Of a DNA stretch of 64,000 nt, positions 51,750 through 64,000 are shown piece by piece. A model generated the notes under the pieces. The model saw only the letters and a list, made by a program, of their open reading frames with translations, searched no databases and was not told the origin of the DNA. Both the position numbers and the translations under genes were made by a program. Position 1 is the stretch's first letter; each line of letters opens with the position of its first letter. Where the stretch lies: positions 62,001-126,000 of the forward strand of contig JAUQWO010000022.1 in assembly GCA_030835135.1 (NCBI GenBank), read 5' to 3'. This stretch comes from Bacteroidota bacterium (lineage in GTDB: Bacteria; Bacteroidota; Ignavibacteria; UBA10030; UBA6906).

Positions 51750-51793
51750 ACGGGTGGCATTCCATGGGTGTGCCCCCATGGCGTGCTGCCCGT
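51750..51793 (+). terminator. Large hairpin between galM and the FGE-fusion gene
   Basis: ACGGGTGGC (51750-51758) pairs with GCTGCCCGT (51785-51793) through two G-T pairs, enclosing CCATGGG (51762-51768) paired with CCCATGG (51775-51781). No T-run follows, so it may pause or trim the transcript rather than end it. Confidence 0.45.
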
Positions 51794-51878
51794 TGTGATT
51801 TCCTGCGCCGATGATCGTGCCCGGAGGAACTCGCCGGACGTGATCGCACCGTCGAAGAACAACAAGGGGACCCAACAC

Positions 51879-54677
51879 ATGCATGGCGCGCGATCGTGGC
51901 TCCTTCTCCTGATCGGGATCCTGCTGTCAGGTCCTGTACCGGCACAGGATATCCGGGGTGTGAATCTCGGGGTCGGCACCGGACTGATCGTGAGGGGGTT
52001 CACCGGGGCGGGCGGGCAGACGGTCACATTCCAACGCCCCCTGCCTCTGTTCAGCGTCTGGTGCAACGACACCCTGATGTCCTCCGCCTCGTTCAAGAGT
52101 CGGGCAACGGGTGACAGCATCCTCTGGTCATCCCGACGAAAGCTCCATGGTGTGGTGAGGACGCGATCACTGTCGCGCCGCGGTGTGGAGATCGATGTGA
52201 CCTTCCGGAATGCCTCGCAGGAGACACTGGCCGTCGCGAATGTCGTTCCGCTGGGCGAGGACGCATCACGGGTCTTCATCCGGGCCAACGGCCCCGCCAC
52301 GCCGGAGCTGCGTCTGAGCCGGTCCGCGTTGTTCCGCCCGGGCTGCGGACCCATCGGGGTGGTGCTTCCTGACAATGCATGGGAGATGGGCTTCTGTGAT
52401 GTTCCCCTCGGCGCCGGCCGTGGACTCGTCGCCATCGCCCGCAGGCAGGATCCAGCATCGGCCGACCTCCGGCGGTTCCGCGCGCTCCTCCCTCCCGGTG
52501 GATGGGTCACCTACCGGTTCCATATCGATGATCATCCCGGCGATTGGCGCGACGGGCTGCGCATGATGTTCCGCGACCGGTGGCTGTATGACCTCGATGC
52601 ATTCGACAACTCCCTCTACGAGCGGAATGATCTCTCCTGGATCAGGAACAGCTATCTGCTTCTGCTGCAATTCGCGTGGGACCGGGACTACTACGATGCC
52701 CAGGCAGGACAGTACCGGTTCGACGCATTCCTGACGCAGTGGCAGCATCTCCTTGGAGGATTCGAAGCGTTCATGCTCTGGCCCACCTGGCCGCGGCTGG
52801 GCGTGGACCAGCGGAACCAGTGGGACATGTACCGCGACCTTCCCGGTGGTCTGACGGAGATCCGACGACAGGTGCGTGTGGCGCGGCGGTCCGGCACGCG
52901 GTATTTCATCGCATACAATCCGTGGGATGAGAGCACCCGCCGTGAGGATCACCTCGCAGGGCTTGCGGATATGGTAAGGACCATCGAAGCGGACGGCGTG
53001 GTCCTGGATACCTGGGGCCAGTCGAGCAGGGAGTTCCAGGCCGCGGTAGACGGTGTGCGGCCGGGGGTGGTGCTCTTCAGCGAAGGGATGGCGGTGCCGC
53101 GGGACATGCCTGGCATCGTCGCCGGACGCGTGCACGATGCCATCGTGATGCCACCGCCTCTCAATCTGAACAAACTCATCAAGCCTGATCTGGCTATCTT
53201 CCGCGTCATCCAGCTGGCGGAAGGACGCATCCATCGCGAGGCGGCGGTTGCGTTCTTCAACGGCTATGGGAGCGAACTGAATATCATGCGCCCCGGCCGG
53301 CCGGACTGGATCGGGGAGGACCTCGCGTACCTCGGCCGGACAACGAAGATCCTGCGCGAGAACAGTACTGCGTTCCTCAGTCCGGCGTGGGTCCCGCTGG
53401 TCAGTACGATGGCGGACAGCATCTGGGTGCATGCCTGGCCGGCACAAGGGAAGACCCTTTTTACGGTCTATAACCTGCGTCCGGAAGGCTGGAGCGGTCC
53501 GTTGTTCACCGTGAGCGCGGACACGTCGATGCATGCCGTGGATATCTGGAACCATGAGGAGCTGCCGTGGCGGAGTGCAGGAGACAGTGTGACGCTCACG
53601 GTGACTGCCGATGGGTTCAGCCGCGCGTGGCTCGGTACGCGGAGAGAGGGAAGCGTGGATTGCATCGCGCTCTTCACGAAGCGACTGGGTGTCCGGCGGG
53701 ATGGCGATTCGCTTGCGATCACGACGCGTGGCGGTTCCCGCGTTGTTGTCTGGGCTGGCGAGCCATCGTACCACACCCCATCCGTCACGTTCTCGACGGG
53801 AGCGCGGACGATCTCGCTGTACCAGGCGCTGGGCCGGCATGAGGAAAAGGTGGTGGTGCAGCTGTTTGATGGGTCCGAACTGCTGGATGAGCGTGTGGTG
53901 TCGATCCCGCTCGCGACGCCACGTCCTCTCACGCGCCGCGTCACGACCCCTCCGTCACTGAATCCGCCGGCAGGCATGGTCCGGATCCCTCCGGGATCGT
54001 TCACCTACCGCACCACCAGGAGCTTCTTGTCACCGAACGAGGTGATCCCGTATCCGGGTTCAGCGGAACCACGCACCTGTCTCATGCCCGAATTCTTCAT
54101 GGATGTCACGCCGGTCACCAACGCGCAGTTCCGGACGTTCATGAGCGCCACGCACTATATGCCTGCCGACCGGACGAATTTTCTGAAGCACTGGGTGGAC
54201 GGCGCGCCGGTGCCCGGGATGGAGAACCACCCGGTGGTGTATGTTGACCGGCATGATGCTGCCGCATATGCCGTGTGGGCAGGGAAGCGTCTCCCCACGG
54301 AGGTGGAGTGGCAGTATGCCGCGCAGGGAGCCGATGGCCGGAAGTATCCCTGGGGAGCGGCATTCGATTCGACACGGTGCAACTGTGGCCGGCAGATGAC
54401 CACGCCGGTGGATGCCTTCCCGTCCGGAGCGAGTCCGTTCGGCGTGCAGGATCTTGTCGGAAACGTCTGGCAACTTACGGCCGATCTGTACACCAACGGC
54501 ACCTTCTATTATGCCATGCTCCGCGGCGGGAGCTACTATGATCCGTCGTCCAGTTGGTGGTACGTGCGCGGGGGGCCGCAACCGGTGGACAATCCGCAGA
54601 TCCTCCTGCTGGTTGCTCCGGGTTTCGACCGTTGCGCAACGGTGGGATTCCGTTGTGTGAAGGATGGTGGACGATGA
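51879..54677 (+). CDS. Secreted glycosidase-like protein fused to a formylglycine-generating-enzyme (FGE/SUMF1) domain
   Basis: The 932-residue protein has a signal peptide (SWLLLLIGILLSGPVPAQ). Residues about 40-230 form a beta-rich domain, and about 235-560 look like a TIM-barrel glycoside hydrolase (FEAFMLWPTWPRLG, RYFIAYNPWDES, VVLDTWGQSS, LFSEGMAVP), with a beta domain after it. I do not recognise the GH family. The C-terminal 240 residues are a clear FGE-sulfatase domain (MVRIPPGSF, FFMDVTPVTNAQF, KRLPTEVEWQYAAQG, VGNVWQLTADLY, MLRGGSYY). In FGE proteins this fold oxidises a cysteine or binds sugars; whether copper-binding cysteines are kept is unclear. A longer frame starts at 51768, but AAGGGGA precedes ATG 51879. 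The stop overlaps the LacI gene start by four bases. Confidence 0.72.
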   Translation: MHGARSWLLLLIGILLSGPVPAQDIRGVNLGVGTGLIVRGFTGAGGQTVTFQRPLPLFSVWCNDTLMSSASFKSRATGDSILWSSRRKLHGVVRTRSLSRRGVEIDVTFRNASQETLAVANVVPLGEDASRVFIRANGPATPELRLSRSALFRPGCGPIGVVLPDNAWEMGFCDVPLGAGRGLVAIARRQDPASADLRRFRALLPPGGWVTYRFHIDDHPGDWRDGLRMMFRDRWLYDLDAFDNSLYERNDLSWIRNSYLLLLQFAWDRDYYDAQAGQYRFDAFLTQWQHLLGGFEAFMLWPTWPRLGVDQRNQWDMYRDLPGGLTEIRRQVRVARRSGTRYFIAYNPWDESTRREDHLAGLADMVRTIEADGVVLDTWGQSSREFQAAVDGVRPGVVLFSEGMAVPRDMPGIVAGRVHDAIVMPPPLNLNKLIKPDLAIFRVIQLAEGRIHREAAVAFFNGYGSELNIMRPGRPDWIGEDLAYLGRTTKILRENSTAFLSPAWVPLVSTMADSIWVHAWPAQGKTLFTVYNLRPEGWSGPLFTVSADTSMHAVDIWNHEELPWRSAGDSVTLTVTADGFSRAWLGTRREGSVDCIALFTKRLGVRRDGDSLAITTRGGSRVVVWAGEPSYHTPSVTFSTGARTISLYQALGRHEEKVVVQLFDGSELLDERVVSIPLATPRPLTRRVTTPPSLNPPAGMVRIPPGSFTYRTTRSFLSPNEVIPYPGSAEPRTCLMPEFFMDVTPVTNAQFRTFMSATHYMPADRTNFLKHWVDGAPVPGMENHPVVYVDRHDAAAYAVWAGKRLPTEVEWQYAAQGADGRKYPWGAAFDSTRCNCGRQMTTPVDAFPSGASPFGVQDLVGNVWQLTADLYTNGTFYYAMLRGGSYYDPSSSWWYVRGGPQPVDNPQILLLVAPGFDRCATVGFRCVKDGGR

Positions 54678-59402: not shown

Positions 59403-61898
59403 GTGACAGTGAGAAGGACCGGGGAGCTGTCTGAAGCCCAGCTTCGGCAGGAACTCTCCCGATGCGAGTCGTGCGAGGAGAAGCCGTGCAAAGAACATTG
59501 CCCGGCCGATTGTTCCCCCGCCGATTTCATCATGGCGGCCCGCGCCGGCGGGCCATCGGACTACCGGCGCGCCGCGGCCATCATCATGGGCAGCAACCCG
59601 CTGGGTGGCATCTGCGGCGCCCTCTGTCCCGACACTCTCTGCATGCAGGGGTGCGTCCACCGCCTCTTCGATCACCCCATCAACATCCCCGCCGTCCAGT
59701 CGTCCATCATCCGCAAGGCCTATGACGTTGGCATGCCACCGTTCCCGGCCGCGCCCTCCAACGGAAAACGTATCGCGGTCGTGGGCGCAGGTCCTGCCGG
59801 ACTCGCCGGCGCCGCGGTGCTCGCGCAGAAGGGGTACACGGTCGACATCTACGAGCAGTCGGACCGCGCCGGTGGCATGTGCAACCTGATCCCGGCATCG
59901 CGCCTTGCGCGTGAGGAGCTGCAACGCGACATCGACTTCACGCTCGCCCTCGGCGATACGATCCTGTTCACCGAAGCAGCGATCCTCGATCCGGCGAAGC
60001 TGCTTGCAGGCGGGACGTACGATGCGGTGCTCGTCACCACCGGCCTCGACACACCGATGTCCGCCCGCATACCGGGCGAACAGTACGCGCTGACCTGGGA
60101 AGAGTTCCTCGATCAGCATCCGTCCGTCCCGCTGAAGAACAAACGCGTGCTCATCATCGGCGGCGGCGCCATCGCCGTGGATTGCGCCACGACCGCCGTG
60201 AACGGCGGAGCCGCGCATTGTGAACTGGTCTATCGCCGCAAGATGGAGCACATGCCTCTCACCGCGTACGAACGCGACCTGCTCCTTGCGCATGGCGTGG
60301 AGATCACCTCCGGCACACGCGTGACGAAGGTGCATCACCGCAAGGGCGCTGTCACGGGAGTGACCACGATGAAGCAGTACGTGCGCCGCGGCAGGAAACC
60401 CACGCCGGACAACTTCGCGCCGCTCGCAGCGGAGAAGCCTGCATTCCGTGCGTGCGATATCGTCATCGTCGCGATCGGCAGTACCTCACGGTTCACTGCG
60501 AAGAAACTGCGCCGCGTGTTCACCGCGGGCGACCTGGTGCACGGCGCGGCCACCGTGGTGGAAGCCGTTGCGTCCGGCAAGAATGCCGCCGCCGCGATCG
60601 ATGCGGAGCTCTCGGGATCGAAAGCGCTGCGCATGCCGCGCACGCCGAAAAGCCGACTGGCGCTGGCCGGACGCACGATGCGCCCGGTGTCGCTGGCCAC
60701 GTCCTTCTTCGGCCGGCAGATCCTCTCGCCACTCCTCCTCTCCGCAGCGCCGCATACGGACGGCTACGAGCAGATGGTGAAGGCCTACAAGGCCGGCTGG
60801 GCGGGCGGCGTGATGAAGACCGCCTTCAACGATGTGCCCGTGCACATCCCCGGCGGCTATATGGTGGTGTTCGGCGATTCCACATACGGCAACTTCGACA
60901 ATGTGTCCGGCCATCCGCTGAAGCGCGTGGCCGAAGAGGTGCGCACGCTCGTGCGCGAATTCCCCGACCGCCTCACGCTCGCGTCCACCGGCGGACCGGT
61001 CTCCGGCAACGACACTCTGGACCGCGCCGCCTGGCAGACGAACACGAAGATCCTCGAAGATGCCGGCGCGATGGGGGTCGAGTACAGCCTGTCGTGTCCG
61101 CAGGGGGGCGATGGCATGGACGGCGATGTGGTATCGCAGAACGCCGAGCTCTCCGCGAAGATCATCGACTGGGTGATGGAGGCTGGCGATCCGGAGGTAC
61201 CGAAGATCTTCAAACTCACCGGTGCCGTGACTTCCATCCGTGCGATCGCCGTGCGTATCAAAGAGGTGTTCGCACAGTACCCCGACAAACAGGCAGGGAT
61301 CACGCTGGCGAACAGCTTCCCCGCGCTTGCCTGGCAACAGCTCCCGGAGAACCGCGGGAACCGCGGCGTCATCGTCGGGATGTCCGGCGAGGGCGTGTTG
61401 CCGCTCACGTATCTCACCCTTGCCCGTGTGGCTGACCTCGGCCTGTACATCTCGGGGAACGGTGGGGCAATGGATCACCGCGCGGCCGCGGGCTTCCTCG
61501 CACTCGGCGCGTCGTCCGTGCAGTTCTGCACGGCCGTCATGAAGTACGGCCTGGGCGTTGTGGACGAACTGGAATCCGGGTTGAGCTACTTTCTCGCCGG
61601 CCGCGGGATGAAGAGCGTTCAGGAGCTGATCGGTTCATCCGTGCATATGCCCATCGTGCCGTTCGAGCAGCTCACGGCCACGAAGCAGGTGCCGTCGCTC
61701 ACCGCGGCGCTCTGCGAACATTGCGGCAACTGCGTGCGTTGTCCGTACATGGCGATCAGCATGGATGCCCGGACGGTGCCGGTGATCGACGCCACGCGCT
61801 GCATCGGCTGCTCGCTCTGCGTCCAGAAGTGCTTCGCAGGGGCTCTGCACATGCGCGACCGGTCCGCCGCCGAGCTCGCCGGGATGCTGGAGCACTGA
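59403..61898 (+). CDS. Single-chain dihydropyrimidine dehydrogenase-like reductase (PreT-PreA fusion)
   Basis: The 831-residue protein has the layout of animal DPD: an N-terminal iron-sulfur domain (C21, C24, C29, C33, C37, then GGICGALCPDTLCMQGC), an NAD(P)H/FAD oxidoreductase (VVGAGPAGLAG, IIGGGAIAVDCA, FTAGDLVHGAATVVEAVASGK), an FMN-binding dihydroorotate dehydrogenase-like barrel (SCPQGGDG, C565) and two [4Fe-4S] sites at the end (CEHCGNCVRC and CIGCSLCVQKC). DPD reduces uracil and thymine. The active-site loop does not show the GLACGQ-type cysteine segment of mammalian DPD, so the substrate may differ. It is followed two bases later by ssnA and then ygeY, genes of anaerobic purine breakdown, in which YgfK is the usual ring reductase. 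The domain order rules out YgfK itself. Confidence 0.85.
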   Translation: MTVRRTGELSEAQLRQELSRCESCEEKPCKEHCPADCSPADFIMAARAGGPSDYRRAAAIIMGSNPLGGICGALCPDTLCMQGCVHRLFDHPINIPAVQSSIIRKAYDVGMPPFPAAPSNGKRIAVVGAGPAGLAGAAVLAQKGYTVDIYEQSDRAGGMCNLIPASRLAREELQRDIDFTLALGDTILFTEAAILDPAKLLAGGTYDAVLVTTGLDTPMSARIPGEQYALTWEEFLDQHPSVPLKNKRVLIIGGGAIAVDCATTAVNGGAAHCELVYRRKMEHMPLTAYERDLLLAHGVEITSGTRVTKVHHRKGAVTGVTTMKQYVRRGRKPTPDNFAPLAAEKPAFRACDIVIVAIGSTSRFTAKKLRRVFTAGDLVHGAATVVEAVASGKNAAAAIDAELSGSKALRMPRTPKSRLALAGRTMRPVSLATSFFGRQILSPLLLSAAPHTDGYEQMVKAYKAGWAGGVMKTAFNDVPVHIPGGYMVVFGDSTYGNFDNVSGHPLKRVAEEVRTLVREFPDRLTLASTGGPVSGNDTLDRAAWQTNTKILEDAGAMGVEYSLSCPQGGDGMDGDVVSQNAELSAKIIDWVMEAGDPEVPKIFKLTGAVTSIRAIAVRIKEVFAQYPDKQAGITLANSFPALAWQQLPENRGNRGVIVGMSGEGVLPLTYLTLARVADLGLYISGNGGAMDHRAAAGFLALGASSVQFCTAVMKYGLGVVDELESGLSYFLAGRGMKSVQELIGSSVHMPIVPFEQLTATKQVPSLTAALCEHCGNCVRCPYMAISMDARTVPVIDATRCIGCSLCVQKCFAGALHMRDRSAAELAGMLEH

Positions 61899-61899
61899 C

Positions 61900-63243
61900 A
61901 TGGCCTCCCGCCTCCTCCTCGTGAACGGCGTCATCGCCGATCCATCACCCGTCTCCCCGCGTGTGCTCTATGATCACGCGCTCATGATCGAGGGCGGGAG
62001 GATCGCGCGCATCGCGCCGACGACGGAGTTCACCGACCTGGACGTGGACTATCTTGACCTTTCCGGACGGTTGATCCTGCCCGGCTTCATCAACCTCCAT
62101 ACGCATCTCTACAGCACCTTCGCGCGAGGCCTCCCTGCGGTGCAGCCCGCGGCGGACTTCGCCGGTGTCCTGAAGAACCTCTGGTGGAAGCTGGACCGCT
62201 CGCTGACGTTGGATGCCGTCTATTATAGTGCTGTCCCGGTGCTCCTGGAGGCCATCCGCTCCGGCACAACCACGATCATCGACCATCATGCCAGTCCGCA
62301 CGCGGTGCGCGGGTCGCTCGCAGCGTTGAAGCGCGCCCTCGCCGATACCGGCCTGCGGGGGTGTCTCTGCTATGAAGTGTCGGACCGCGACGGCGAGGCG
62401 GTCGCGGCTGAAGGGATCGCGGAAAATGCCGACTTCCTCGCCTCATGCCGGCACCAACAGGATGGTCTGATCGCCGGGCTCTTCGGGCTGCATGCGTCCT
62501 TCACCCTCTCTGAACGGTCCCTGGAACAGGCCGTTGCCGCGGCACAGGCCACGAATGCAGGATTCCATATCCACGTCGCGGAAGCGGCCACGGATCAGGA
62601 GGTGACCTTCAACCTCACGGGCGAGCGTGTCGTTGGCCGCCTCCACCGTCTGGGTATTCTGGGTGGGCGGACCATCGCTGCTCATGCCGTGCACGTGAAT
62701 GATGCCGACATGGACCTGCTGGCATCGACCGGTACCGTTGTCGCGCATAACCCGCAATCGAACATGAACAACGCCGTCGGCATCGCCGATGTGGAGCGGC
62801 TGCGCTCACGCGGTGTAGCCGTGGGGTTGGGCACGGATGCCATGACGCACGATATGCGCCAGGAACTCCGTGCCGGACTCTGGGCACAGCGATTGAAGCA
62901 GCAGAACCCGTCGGCCGGGTGGGACGCACTCTGCGCAGCGCAGTGGGATGTGAACCCGGCGATGGCATCACGGGTTTTCGGCCGTCCGGTGGGCACCATG
63001 GCTGAAGGGGCGATGGCGGATCTGATCGCCATCGCATACGATCCCCCGACGCCGTTGACGAACGATTCACTCCATGGGCACCTGGTGTTCGGCATCGGAT
63101 CTGCGCCGGTGGATACCACGATCGTCGACGGAAGGGTGCTGATGTACCGTGGGAAGCTGGAGTTGGAGTTGGATGAAGAGGAGGTGATGGCGAAAGCCCG
63201 CGAGGTGGCGAGTGGTGTGTGGGGGTCGCTGCGCGAATTCTGA
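61900..63243 (+). CDS. ssnA: SsnA-type aminohydrolase
   Basis: The 447-residue amidohydrolase matches E. coli SsnA through the whole length: FINLHTHLYS (metal histidines), VLKNLWWKLDRSL, the SGTTTIIDHHASPHAVRGSL block, GFHIHVAEA, VHNPQSNMNN-type AHNPQSNMNNAVG, GLGTDAM (metal aspartate) and the PTPLTNDSLHGHLVFG ending. SsnA belongs to the selenium-linked purine catabolic cluster of E. coli (with ygfK, ygeY, ygeW, hyuA, xdhD) and acts in hydrolytic ring opening in the anaerobic urate pathway. It starts two bases after the DPD-like stop, so the two enzymes are almost surely cotranscribed and probably work in sequence. Confidence 0.92.
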   Translation: MASRLLLVNGVIADPSPVSPRVLYDHALMIEGGRIARIAPTTEFTDLDVDYLDLSGRLILPGFINLHTHLYSTFARGLPAVQPAADFAGVLKNLWWKLDRSLTLDAVYYSAVPVLLEAIRSGTTTIIDHHASPHAVRGSLAALKRALADTGLRGCLCYEVSDRDGEAVAAEGIAENADFLASCRHQQDGLIAGLFGLHASFTLSERSLEQAVAAAQATNAGFHIHVAEAATDQEVTFNLTGERVVGRLHRLGILGGRTIAAHAVHVNDADMDLLASTGTVVAHNPQSNMNNAVGIADVERLRSRGVAVGLGTDAMTHDMRQELRAGLWAQRLKQQNPSAGWDALCAAQWDVNPAMASRVFGRPVGTMAEGAMADLIAIAYDPPTPLTNDSLHGHLVFGIGSAPVDTTIVDGRVLMYRGKLELELDEEEVMAKAREVASGVWGSLREF

Positions 63244-63260
63244 ATTCAGATATCTGAATT
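63243..63260. terminator. 18-bp palindrome after ssnA
   Basis: AATTCAGATATCTGAATT is a perfect palindrome beginning at the last base of the ssnA stop codon. The arms resemble those of the tRNA-Phe terminator (17179-17219, also ATCTGAA and TTCAGAT). There is no T-run on the plus strand, so it may be an mRNA end or a pause site. Confidence 0.4.
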
Positions 63261-63287
63261 GTCTGAAAAAGCAACATGACGACGTTA
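63259..63287 (+). promoter_or_regulatory. Weak promoter candidate before ygeY
   Basis: TTG (63259-63261), 19 bases, GACGTTA (63281-63287). The second box resembles TACGTTA before galT with one change. It could give ygeY a separate start near 63294; read-through from ssnA is equally possible. Confidence 0.3.
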
Positions 63288-63311
63288 TCACGAACAGATG
63301 AGTACCTTACA

Positions 63312-64000
63312 ATGTCAGACAAACACCTTACCCGTGCAGCGGCTCTGGAACAGGACACCGTCCGCATCCTGTGCGACCTCATCAAGACACCATCGTTCTC
63401 CTCCAAAGAGAAGGATGTCATCGAGGTCATCCGCAAAGAGATGACCGCCATCGGCTTCGACGAGGTGCGCATCGACGGACTCGGCAGTGTGATCGGGCGG
63501 ATCGGCCACGGGCCGCGCGTGATCTGCTTCGACGCGCACATCGACACCGTGTACGCCGGCGATCTGCAGCAGTGGAAGACCGATCCGTTCGTCCCCGTGG
63601 TCGCCGACGGTAAGGTCCATGGCCGCGGCACCGTGGACCAGAAGGGCGGCATGGCGAGCATGCTCACCGCCGGACGCATGATCAAGGAACTCGGCCTGCA
63701 GGACAAGGTGACCGTGCTCTTCACGGGCACGGTCATGGAAGAGGATTGCGATGGCCTCTGCTGGCTCCACCTCATCCGCGAGGAGAATGTGCGGCCGGAA
63801 CTGGTGGTCATCACCGAGCCGACCAACATGAACATCTACCGCGGCCACCGCGGGAGGATGGAGATCCACGTTTCGGTGAAAGGCGTGAGCTGTCACGGCT
63901 CCGCGCCCGAACGCGGCGTGAATGCCATCTACAAAGCGTCGAAGATCGCTCTGGAGATCGAGAAACTGAACGACCGCCTGCGGAACGATCCGTTCCTCGG
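63312..64000 (+). CDS. ygeY: YgeY-type M20 metallohydrolase, 3'-truncated by the window edge
   Basis: The frame is open from ATG 63312 to the window end, giving about 229 residues. They match E. coli YgeY, the selenium metabolism-linked M20 hydrolase: DAHIDTV (first metal ligands), GRGTVDQKGGMASM, TGTVMEEDCDGLCW (metal-bridging acids), ITEPTNMNIYRGHRGRMEI and SCHGSAPERGVNAI. YgeY acts on a late open-chain intermediate of anaerobic purine breakdown. It follows ssnA after 68 bases and a palindrome. More genes of the set (hyuA, ygeW, ygeX, xdh-like) may lie to the right. Confidence 0.92.
   Translation, partial: MSDKHLTRAAALEQDTVRILCDLIKTPSFSSKEKDVIEVIRKEMTAIGFDEVRIDGLGSVIGRIGHGPRVICFDAHIDTVYAGDLQQWKTDPFVPVVADGKVHGRGTVDQKGGMASMLTAGRMIKELGLQDKVTVLFTGTVMEEDCDGLCWLHLIREENVRPELVVITEPTNMNIYRGHRGRMEIHVSVKGVSCHGSAPERGVNAIYKASKIALEIEKLNDRLRNDPFL

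Follow-up and report, generated by a model that had tools for sequence, protein, structure and literature searches.

A flavoprotein with the architecture of dihydropyrimidine dehydrogenase as a predicted yanthine reductase of the reductive uric acid pathway

What reaction is catalyzed by a flavoprotein that shares the architecture of animal dihydropyrimidine dehydrogenase (DPD) and is encoded directly in front of ssnA and ygeY? This question is raised by a locus at the right end of a 64,000-nucleotide stretch of Bacteroidota DNA (the window), which corresponds to positions 62001-126000 of contig C74 (JAUQWO010000022.1) in a genome of 4.9 Mb. We consider it likely, with good confidence, that this protein (hereafter the reductase) is an NAD(P)H-dependent reductase of yanthine (2,8-dioxopurine), the DPD-architecture counterpart of YgfK and UacX at their step of the reductive uric acid pathway. 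The observations behind this assignment are the genes present and their order, the architecture, the conservation of residues for cofactors and catalysis, a separate clade, co-occurrence with SsnA, and the exclusion of YgfK.

Architecture of the reductase and its gene cluster

The reductase gene (59403..61898; forward strand, as for all features below) begins with a GTG start codon and encodes 831 amino acids. Pfam analysis gave an N-terminal iron-sulfur domain (Fer4_20; residues 9-106, 59427..59720), an FAD/NAD(P)-binding GltD/PreT-like module that was also recognized by structure alignment (residues 123-362, 59769..60488), an FMN-binding DHO_dh-type barrel resembling that of dihydroorotate dehydrogenase (residues about 425-750, 60675..61652), in which the substrate site is proposed to lie, and a C-terminal 2x[4Fe-4S] domain (61704..61847). 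This is the domain order of animal DPD. The first cluster motif of the C-terminal domain (window 61713-61742) reads CxxCxxCxxC, one residue short of the usual CxxCxxCxxxC, and is invariant in the 75 fused family members over which motif conservation was counted. The best relatives of the reductase by sequence in the PDB were pig DPD entries (E 1.5e-48). An AlphaFold2 model built from 31 relatives (mean predicted local distance difference test score, pLDDT, 84.5) matched pig DPD along its entire length (Z 37.0, 777 residues, root mean square deviation 3.3 A), and pig DPD also topped the Foldseek list for the model. A single base separates the stop codon of the reductase gene from the ATG of ssnA (61900..63243), which encodes an aminohydrolase of the reductive uric acid pathway (447 amino acids). 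The SsnA protein exceeded both NCBIfam cut-offs (490.5 bits against 444 and 469.6 bits against 455.5). The M20 hydrolase gene ygeY follows (63276..64000) and runs past the window end; the full-length protein of 413 amino acids scored 515-538 bits against cut-offs near 321. A preliminary description of this DNA had named SsnA and YgeY and had read the DPD domain order from the sequence; the curated cut-offs confirmed the two enzymes, and the Pfam order and the full-length match to pig DPD agreed on the third point.

The reductase was distinguished from its annotated relatives by profile score and by phylogeny. It scored 195.6 bits with the model of the PreA uracil dehydrogenase subunit (NF006183, cut-off 335) and 145 bits with the YgfK model (TIGR03315, cut-off 835). 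In a tree with PyrD sequences as the outgroup, the fused family formed a single clade (support 100/100) on a long stem, the SsnA-linked PreAs formed another (100/99), and the uracil-linked PreAs were separate (97/84). The reductase thus stands in a clade of its own outside the uracil-linked PreA/DPD enzymes, which answers the question of placement that the preliminary description had posed. An ordinary PreA/DPD identity was rejected on profile score, tree position, and the pocket residues described below.

Further genes of the pathway were found beyond the window. Contig C74 continues for 4.75 kb and encodes a threonine-synthase-like pyridoxal phosphate (PLP) enzyme, a D-hydantoinase-like (HyuA) protein, and a molybdenum subunit of xanthine dehydrogenase (XDH) that is cut by the contig end. 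Another contig, C63, starts with an XDH C terminus, followed by xdhC, ygeW (626-660 bits, above the cut-off), a CysK-like PLP enzyme, and MocA-like and YqeB-like maturation proteins. At locus L093, the same genes up to ygeW are found in the same order on one contig; C74 and C63 therefore very probably adjoin. The HyuA-like protein (449 amino acids; 274.8 bits against a cut-off of 393.25) gave its top score, below the cut-off, to a dihydropyrimidinase model. The molybdenum and 2Fe-2S subunits of XDH are present, and no FAD subunit was seen in the window-type cluster. No YgfK above the cut-off was found in the window genome. The search to the right of position 64000 that had been suggested earlier therefore yielded a HyuA-like protein, XDH, and a PLP enzyme, with XdhC and YgeW on C63, but not a canonical YgeX. 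Judged by sequence, the cluster is the E. coli ygeW-xdhD gene set with ygfK replaced and canonical ygeX missing. Two fold-type-II PLP enzymes, one threonine-synthase-like and one CysK-like (483 amino acids), recur in clusters without canonical YgeX (L016:2527-3759, L223:2312-3760), and one of the two may be the diaminopropionate lyase.

Active-site residues and the proposed reaction

All 75 members retain C21, C24, C29, C33, C71, C75, C80, C84, and Q99 of the N-terminal iron-sulfur domain, as well as the cofactor cysteines, the FMN lysines, the equivalents of Asn609 and Asn736, and the catalytic loop SLSCPQGG. The general acid of DPD is Cys671, located in LNLSCP (PMC3674756, PMC8097209). Its counterpart in the catalytic loop of the reductase (EYSLSCPQGGDGMDGDVVSQ, 61080..61139) is C565, within YSLSCP, which is likewise invariant. 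The preliminary description had emphasized the lack of a GLACGQ-type cysteine segment. This is literally correct, the reductase having GDVVSQ, but the feature is not a catalytic one: the argument fails because Cys671 of DPD lies outside the GLACGQ segment. Loss of the catalytic cysteine was ruled out by the conservation of C565 in 75 of 75 members.

The uracil contacts of DPD are altered in a consistent manner. In every member Asn668 is replaced by Ser, Asn609 and Asn736 are kept, and the Thr737 position is Ser or Thr. We compared the FMN domains of 33 fusions and 13 SsnA-linked PreAs with those of 15 enzymes of the uracil type. Just three columns had one and the same fixed residue in both SsnA-linked groups and a different residue in every uracil-type enzyme: 448 (Ser to Ala), 499 (Glu to Asp), and 562 (Asn to Ser). 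Columns 499 and 562 correspond to DPD Glu611 and Asn668, both of which are in the contact list of 5-fluorouracil; the ND2 atom of Asn668 hydrogen-bonds O4 of uracil, at 3.1 A in the 5-fluorouracil list (PMC10970046). In the reductase, D499 lies in the substrate loop N497-x-D499-N500-V501-S502-x-H504 (60891..60914) in place of Glu611 of DPD/PreA, and S562 of the catalytic loop takes the place of Asn668. These two replacements fit a purine rather than a uracil substrate. Gene context and pocket residues together favor a purine over a pyrimidine as the predicted substrate, in line with the preliminary description, which had suggested a ring-reducing step on a purine-derived or other cyclic amide.

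Li et al. reported that XdhD reduces urate to yanthine (PMC12507026). Together with SsnA, either YgfK or the PydA homologue of C. difficile, UacX (CdUacX), turns yanthine mainly into ureidomethyl-hydantoin and to a minor extent into 5-ureido-dihydrouracil, and later steps reach pyruvate (PMC12507026). In both published products, purine C6 is a CH2 and C5 a CH, which indicates that hydrogen is added at these two positions. For the present cluster we infer the substrate, the electron path, the direction, and the identity of the final PLP lyase as follows. A molybdenum-dependent enzyme of the XDH family would strip the 6-oxo group from urate to give yanthine. NAD(P)H would then reduce the FAD of the reductase, and electrons would pass through four [4Fe-4S] clusters to FMN. 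A hydride from FMN and a proton from C565 would saturate the C6-C5 bond of yanthine, as DPD does with C6-C5 of uracil. SsnA would next open the C4 amidine, and the HyuA-like protein, YgeW, YgeY, and a PLP lyase would convert the product to diaminopropionate and pyruvate and release carbamoyl phosphate. The earlier proposal that SsnA and YgeY together act on the reduced ring can be kept for SsnA but not for YgeY, which in the published pathway acts late, on ureido groups. Under the same numbering, C6 and C5 of the purine would overlay C6 and C5 of uracil, and the N9-H of the fused imidazolone ring would take the position of uracil O4. An Asn donating to O4 would be mismatched with N9-H, whereas Ser is smaller and could accept. 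The overlay also suggests why the 6-oxo group must be removed first, as C6 would then resemble C6 of uracil.

Occurrence among relatives and rival explanations

A single scan gave 80 loci with relatives of the reductase (47-73% identity), many of them in metagenome-assembled genomes. By record names the relatives are spread over some 13 phyla (Bacteroidota, Ignavibacteriota, Verrucomicrobiota, Acidobacteriota, Elusimicrobiota, Chloroflexota, Cloacimonadota, Myxococcota, Pseudomonadota, Lentisphaerota, Kiritimatiellota, Auribacterota, and Bacillota), with a recurrent order of reductase-ssnA-ygeY-PLP-(hyuA)-xdh-xdhC-ygeW. An SsnA homologue was encoded on the DNA around 59 of the 80 reductase loci, and ssnA lay within 600 bp of the reductase gene in 41 of the 61 loci having at least 1.5 kb on both sides. 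SsnA above the cut-off was also found in 13 of 23 genomes, mostly ones without an adjacent ssnA. A set of 120 relatives of the window genome comprised 14 with the reductase, all of which had SsnA, and 106 without it, of which 35 had SsnA (Fisher p 1e-6, uncorrected for shared ancestry). YgfK above the cut-off was found in none of 50 reductase-bearing genomes, and YgeW above the cut-off in 28 of them.

Fusions beside SsnA were also observed in Chloroflexi/Anaerolineae (L054, L055, L057, L058, L060, L064, L067, and L097), and those tested had no YgeW above the cut-off. An F420-type reductase has been reported for Chloroflexota (PMC12507026), and the presence of the fusion in several Chloroflexi qualifies the published statement that this phylum lacks these enzymes. 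Relatives with SsnA and without the fusion had a PreT+PreA pair (about 15), a short YgfK lacking the FAD module (about 9), or a canonical YgfK (1); the remainder had truncated or unresolved neighborhoods. This variety around ssnA indicates that bacteria of one class use several flavoprotein architectures for a single pathway step. The PreT+PreA clusters of this class include L181, L182, L193, L195, L197, L204, L205, L208, L209, L211, L213, L214, and L218, and PreAs of SsnA-linked pairs also have Asp499/Ser562. The short YgfK-like proteins (about 670-760 amino acids) lie beside ssnA at L180, L185, L200, L202, L203, L206, L207, and L219 and are possibly ferredoxin-dependent. In the two that were aligned, from L180 and L185, the loop Cys of HGCPP is replaced by Thr (HGTPA).

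Could the reductase instead be an ordinary dihydropyrimidine dehydrogenase that reduces uracil or thymine, placed beside ssnA by chance and served by the HyuA-like protein as its dihydropyrimidinase? The full-length DPD fold, the conserved equivalents of Cys671, Asn609, and Asn736, and the top score of the HyuA-like protein, albeit below the cut-off, would all suit such an enzyme. We nevertheless regard it as quite unlikely, given the score below the PreA equivalog cut-off, the clade outside PreA/DPD, and the Ser and Asp replacements found in every member and in 0 of 15 uracil types. The neighbors SsnA, YgeY, XDH, and YgeW also speak against it, whereas several uracil-type preA genes whose neighborhoods were checked adjoin hydA and/or a Zn-dependent hydrolase gene. 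Another explanation, which we judge unlikely, is that the same cluster acts on a different purine-derived ring (xanthine, urate, or an earlier deaminated purine) in a pathway order unlike that of E. coli. By sequence, the XDH of the cluster is nearer to XdhA/PucD-type proteins and does not qualify as an XdhD orthologue; it lacks the segment carrying XdhD Glu606, so that this site could not be aligned, and some clusters carry two XDH systems. However, the XdhD of C. difficile likewise matches that of E. coli poorly (25.6%), and at locus L045 the fusion occurs together with an XdhD-like XDH that is 41% identical and has a Glu at the position aligned with E606. Moreover, the cluster retains SsnA, the HyuA-like protein, YgeY, and YgeW, all of whose published substrates can be derived from dihydro-yanthine (PMC12507026), and loss of the O4-binding Asn suits a substrate without an acceptor there.

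It is very improbable that the reductase is a paralogue with another redox task in a cluster that has decayed or become dispensable in its host. In one subclade (L081-L091) the reductase stands alone amid unrelated neighbors, with only divergent SsnA-like proteins (about 250-280 bits) encoded in the genome, and there it may have another role; this Myxococcales/Proteobacteria subclade includes L081, L082, L083, L086, L089, and L091. On the other hand, the window cluster contains only intact open reading frames, the motif does not vary across 75 sequences, the gene order is common to many phyla, and a genome search found no other PreA-type barrel in the window genome able to perform the step. 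Like this solitary subclade and the XDH assignment, some further observations weigh against a yanthine reductase or its reading in detail. No match to canonical YgeX exceeded the cut-off in the window genome. Residues 566-575 of the active-site loop had a pLDDT below 50 in the model, and pocket geometry was not taken from it for this reason. Approximately unbiased (AU) tests (p 0.32 and 0.09) left the branching order of the fusion, the SsnA-linked PreAs, and the uracil PreAs unsettled, and with it the choice between shared ancestry and convergence for the Ser/Asp pair. Finally, C. difficile UacX, the one assayed relative, was compared with the fusion family by its published description.

Two observations were made by eye elsewhere in the genome. 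An open reading frame of 969 amino acids in the window (51768-54677) has a C terminus resembling a formylglycine-generating-enzyme-type domain. Contig C45 (L017:8231-13856) carries an FeFe-hydrogenase-like operon, in which a NuoF-like subunit and a GltD-like module form a fusion, and this operon would fit an anaerobic lifestyle of the host.

Significance and comparison with known systems

These findings carry a gout-relevant pathway, only recently described from gut bacteria, into some 13 phyla, for the most part into environmental lineages without cultured members. They provide a residue-level hypothesis that separates yanthine reductases from uracil reductases, the former being otherwise likely to be annotated as DPD/PreA. 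They also offer an alternative to YgfK that consists of one polypeptide, is presumably driven by NAD(P)H, and could matter for work on uricolytic probiotics. In addition, they bear on the open question of Percudani, whether the pathway is an ancient metabolic innovation or a recent gut adaptation (PMC12990295). A wider reading, to which we give somewhat less than an even chance, is that Asn668 to Ser with Glu611 to Asp turns a uracil-reducing DPD/PreA barrel into a yanthine reductase, that this switch recurs in the DPD-like fusion and the PreT/PreA-type pair, and that at least four interchangeable architectures (DPD-like fusion, PreT/PreA pair, YgfK, and short FAD-less YgfK) fill the same step within one bacterial class. 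If so, given the spread in bacteria of peat, lake, soil, and groundwater, the reductive urate pathway would be an old environmental trait and not a gut invention.

The pathway, YgfK, UacX without an FAD domain, the F420-type variant, and the occurrence of the X1 family near ssnA, ygeY, hyuA, and xdh are already published. In the papers on the pathway that we searched, the DPD-architecture fusion, SsnA-linked PreT/PreA, the short-YgfK variants, and the residue signature were not found, although 2023/2025 papers by Liu et al. and Kasahara et al. possibly mention them; relative to that literature, the fused architecture, the residue signature, and the environmental spread are new. Dehydrogenase X1 (Barba et al. 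2013) is a DHODH/PreA-related family often near hyuA, ygeW, ygeY, ssnA, and xdh; it was described as a phylogenetic clade of uncharacterized function and is likened to the fusion by description only (PMC4016543).

E. coli YgfK resembles the reductase in that its gene lies just upstream of ssnA, in combining an FMN barrel with a GltD-like FAD module and iron-sulfur clusters, and in the step proposed. However, its barrel is N-terminal, whereas that of the reductase follows the FAD module in a permuted order, and the two barrels are only weakly similar (hhalign E 0.003, probability 10). C. difficile UacX has a PydA-kind PF01180 FMN barrel in an ssnA cluster, so that PydA-like replacement of YgfK is not wholly unprecedented, being foreshadowed in part by this FMN-only protein. 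UacX has no FAD domain and is thought to receive electrons from ferredoxin (PMC12507026), whereas the reductase carries an FAD/NAD(P) module fused in front. In E. coli PreT/PreA, the same modules are split over two genes as separate subunits; PreA of the uracil type has Asn/Glu at the signature sites, and the SsnA-linked pairs have Ser/Asp as in the fusion. Mammalian DPD shares with the reductase the domain order, the full-length fold, and the equivalents of Cys671, Asn609, Asn736, Lys574, and Lys709. By contrast, it is longer (1025 versus 831 amino acids), its barrel is about 32% identical, and its context is pyrimidine metabolism, whereas that of the reductase is purine metabolism.

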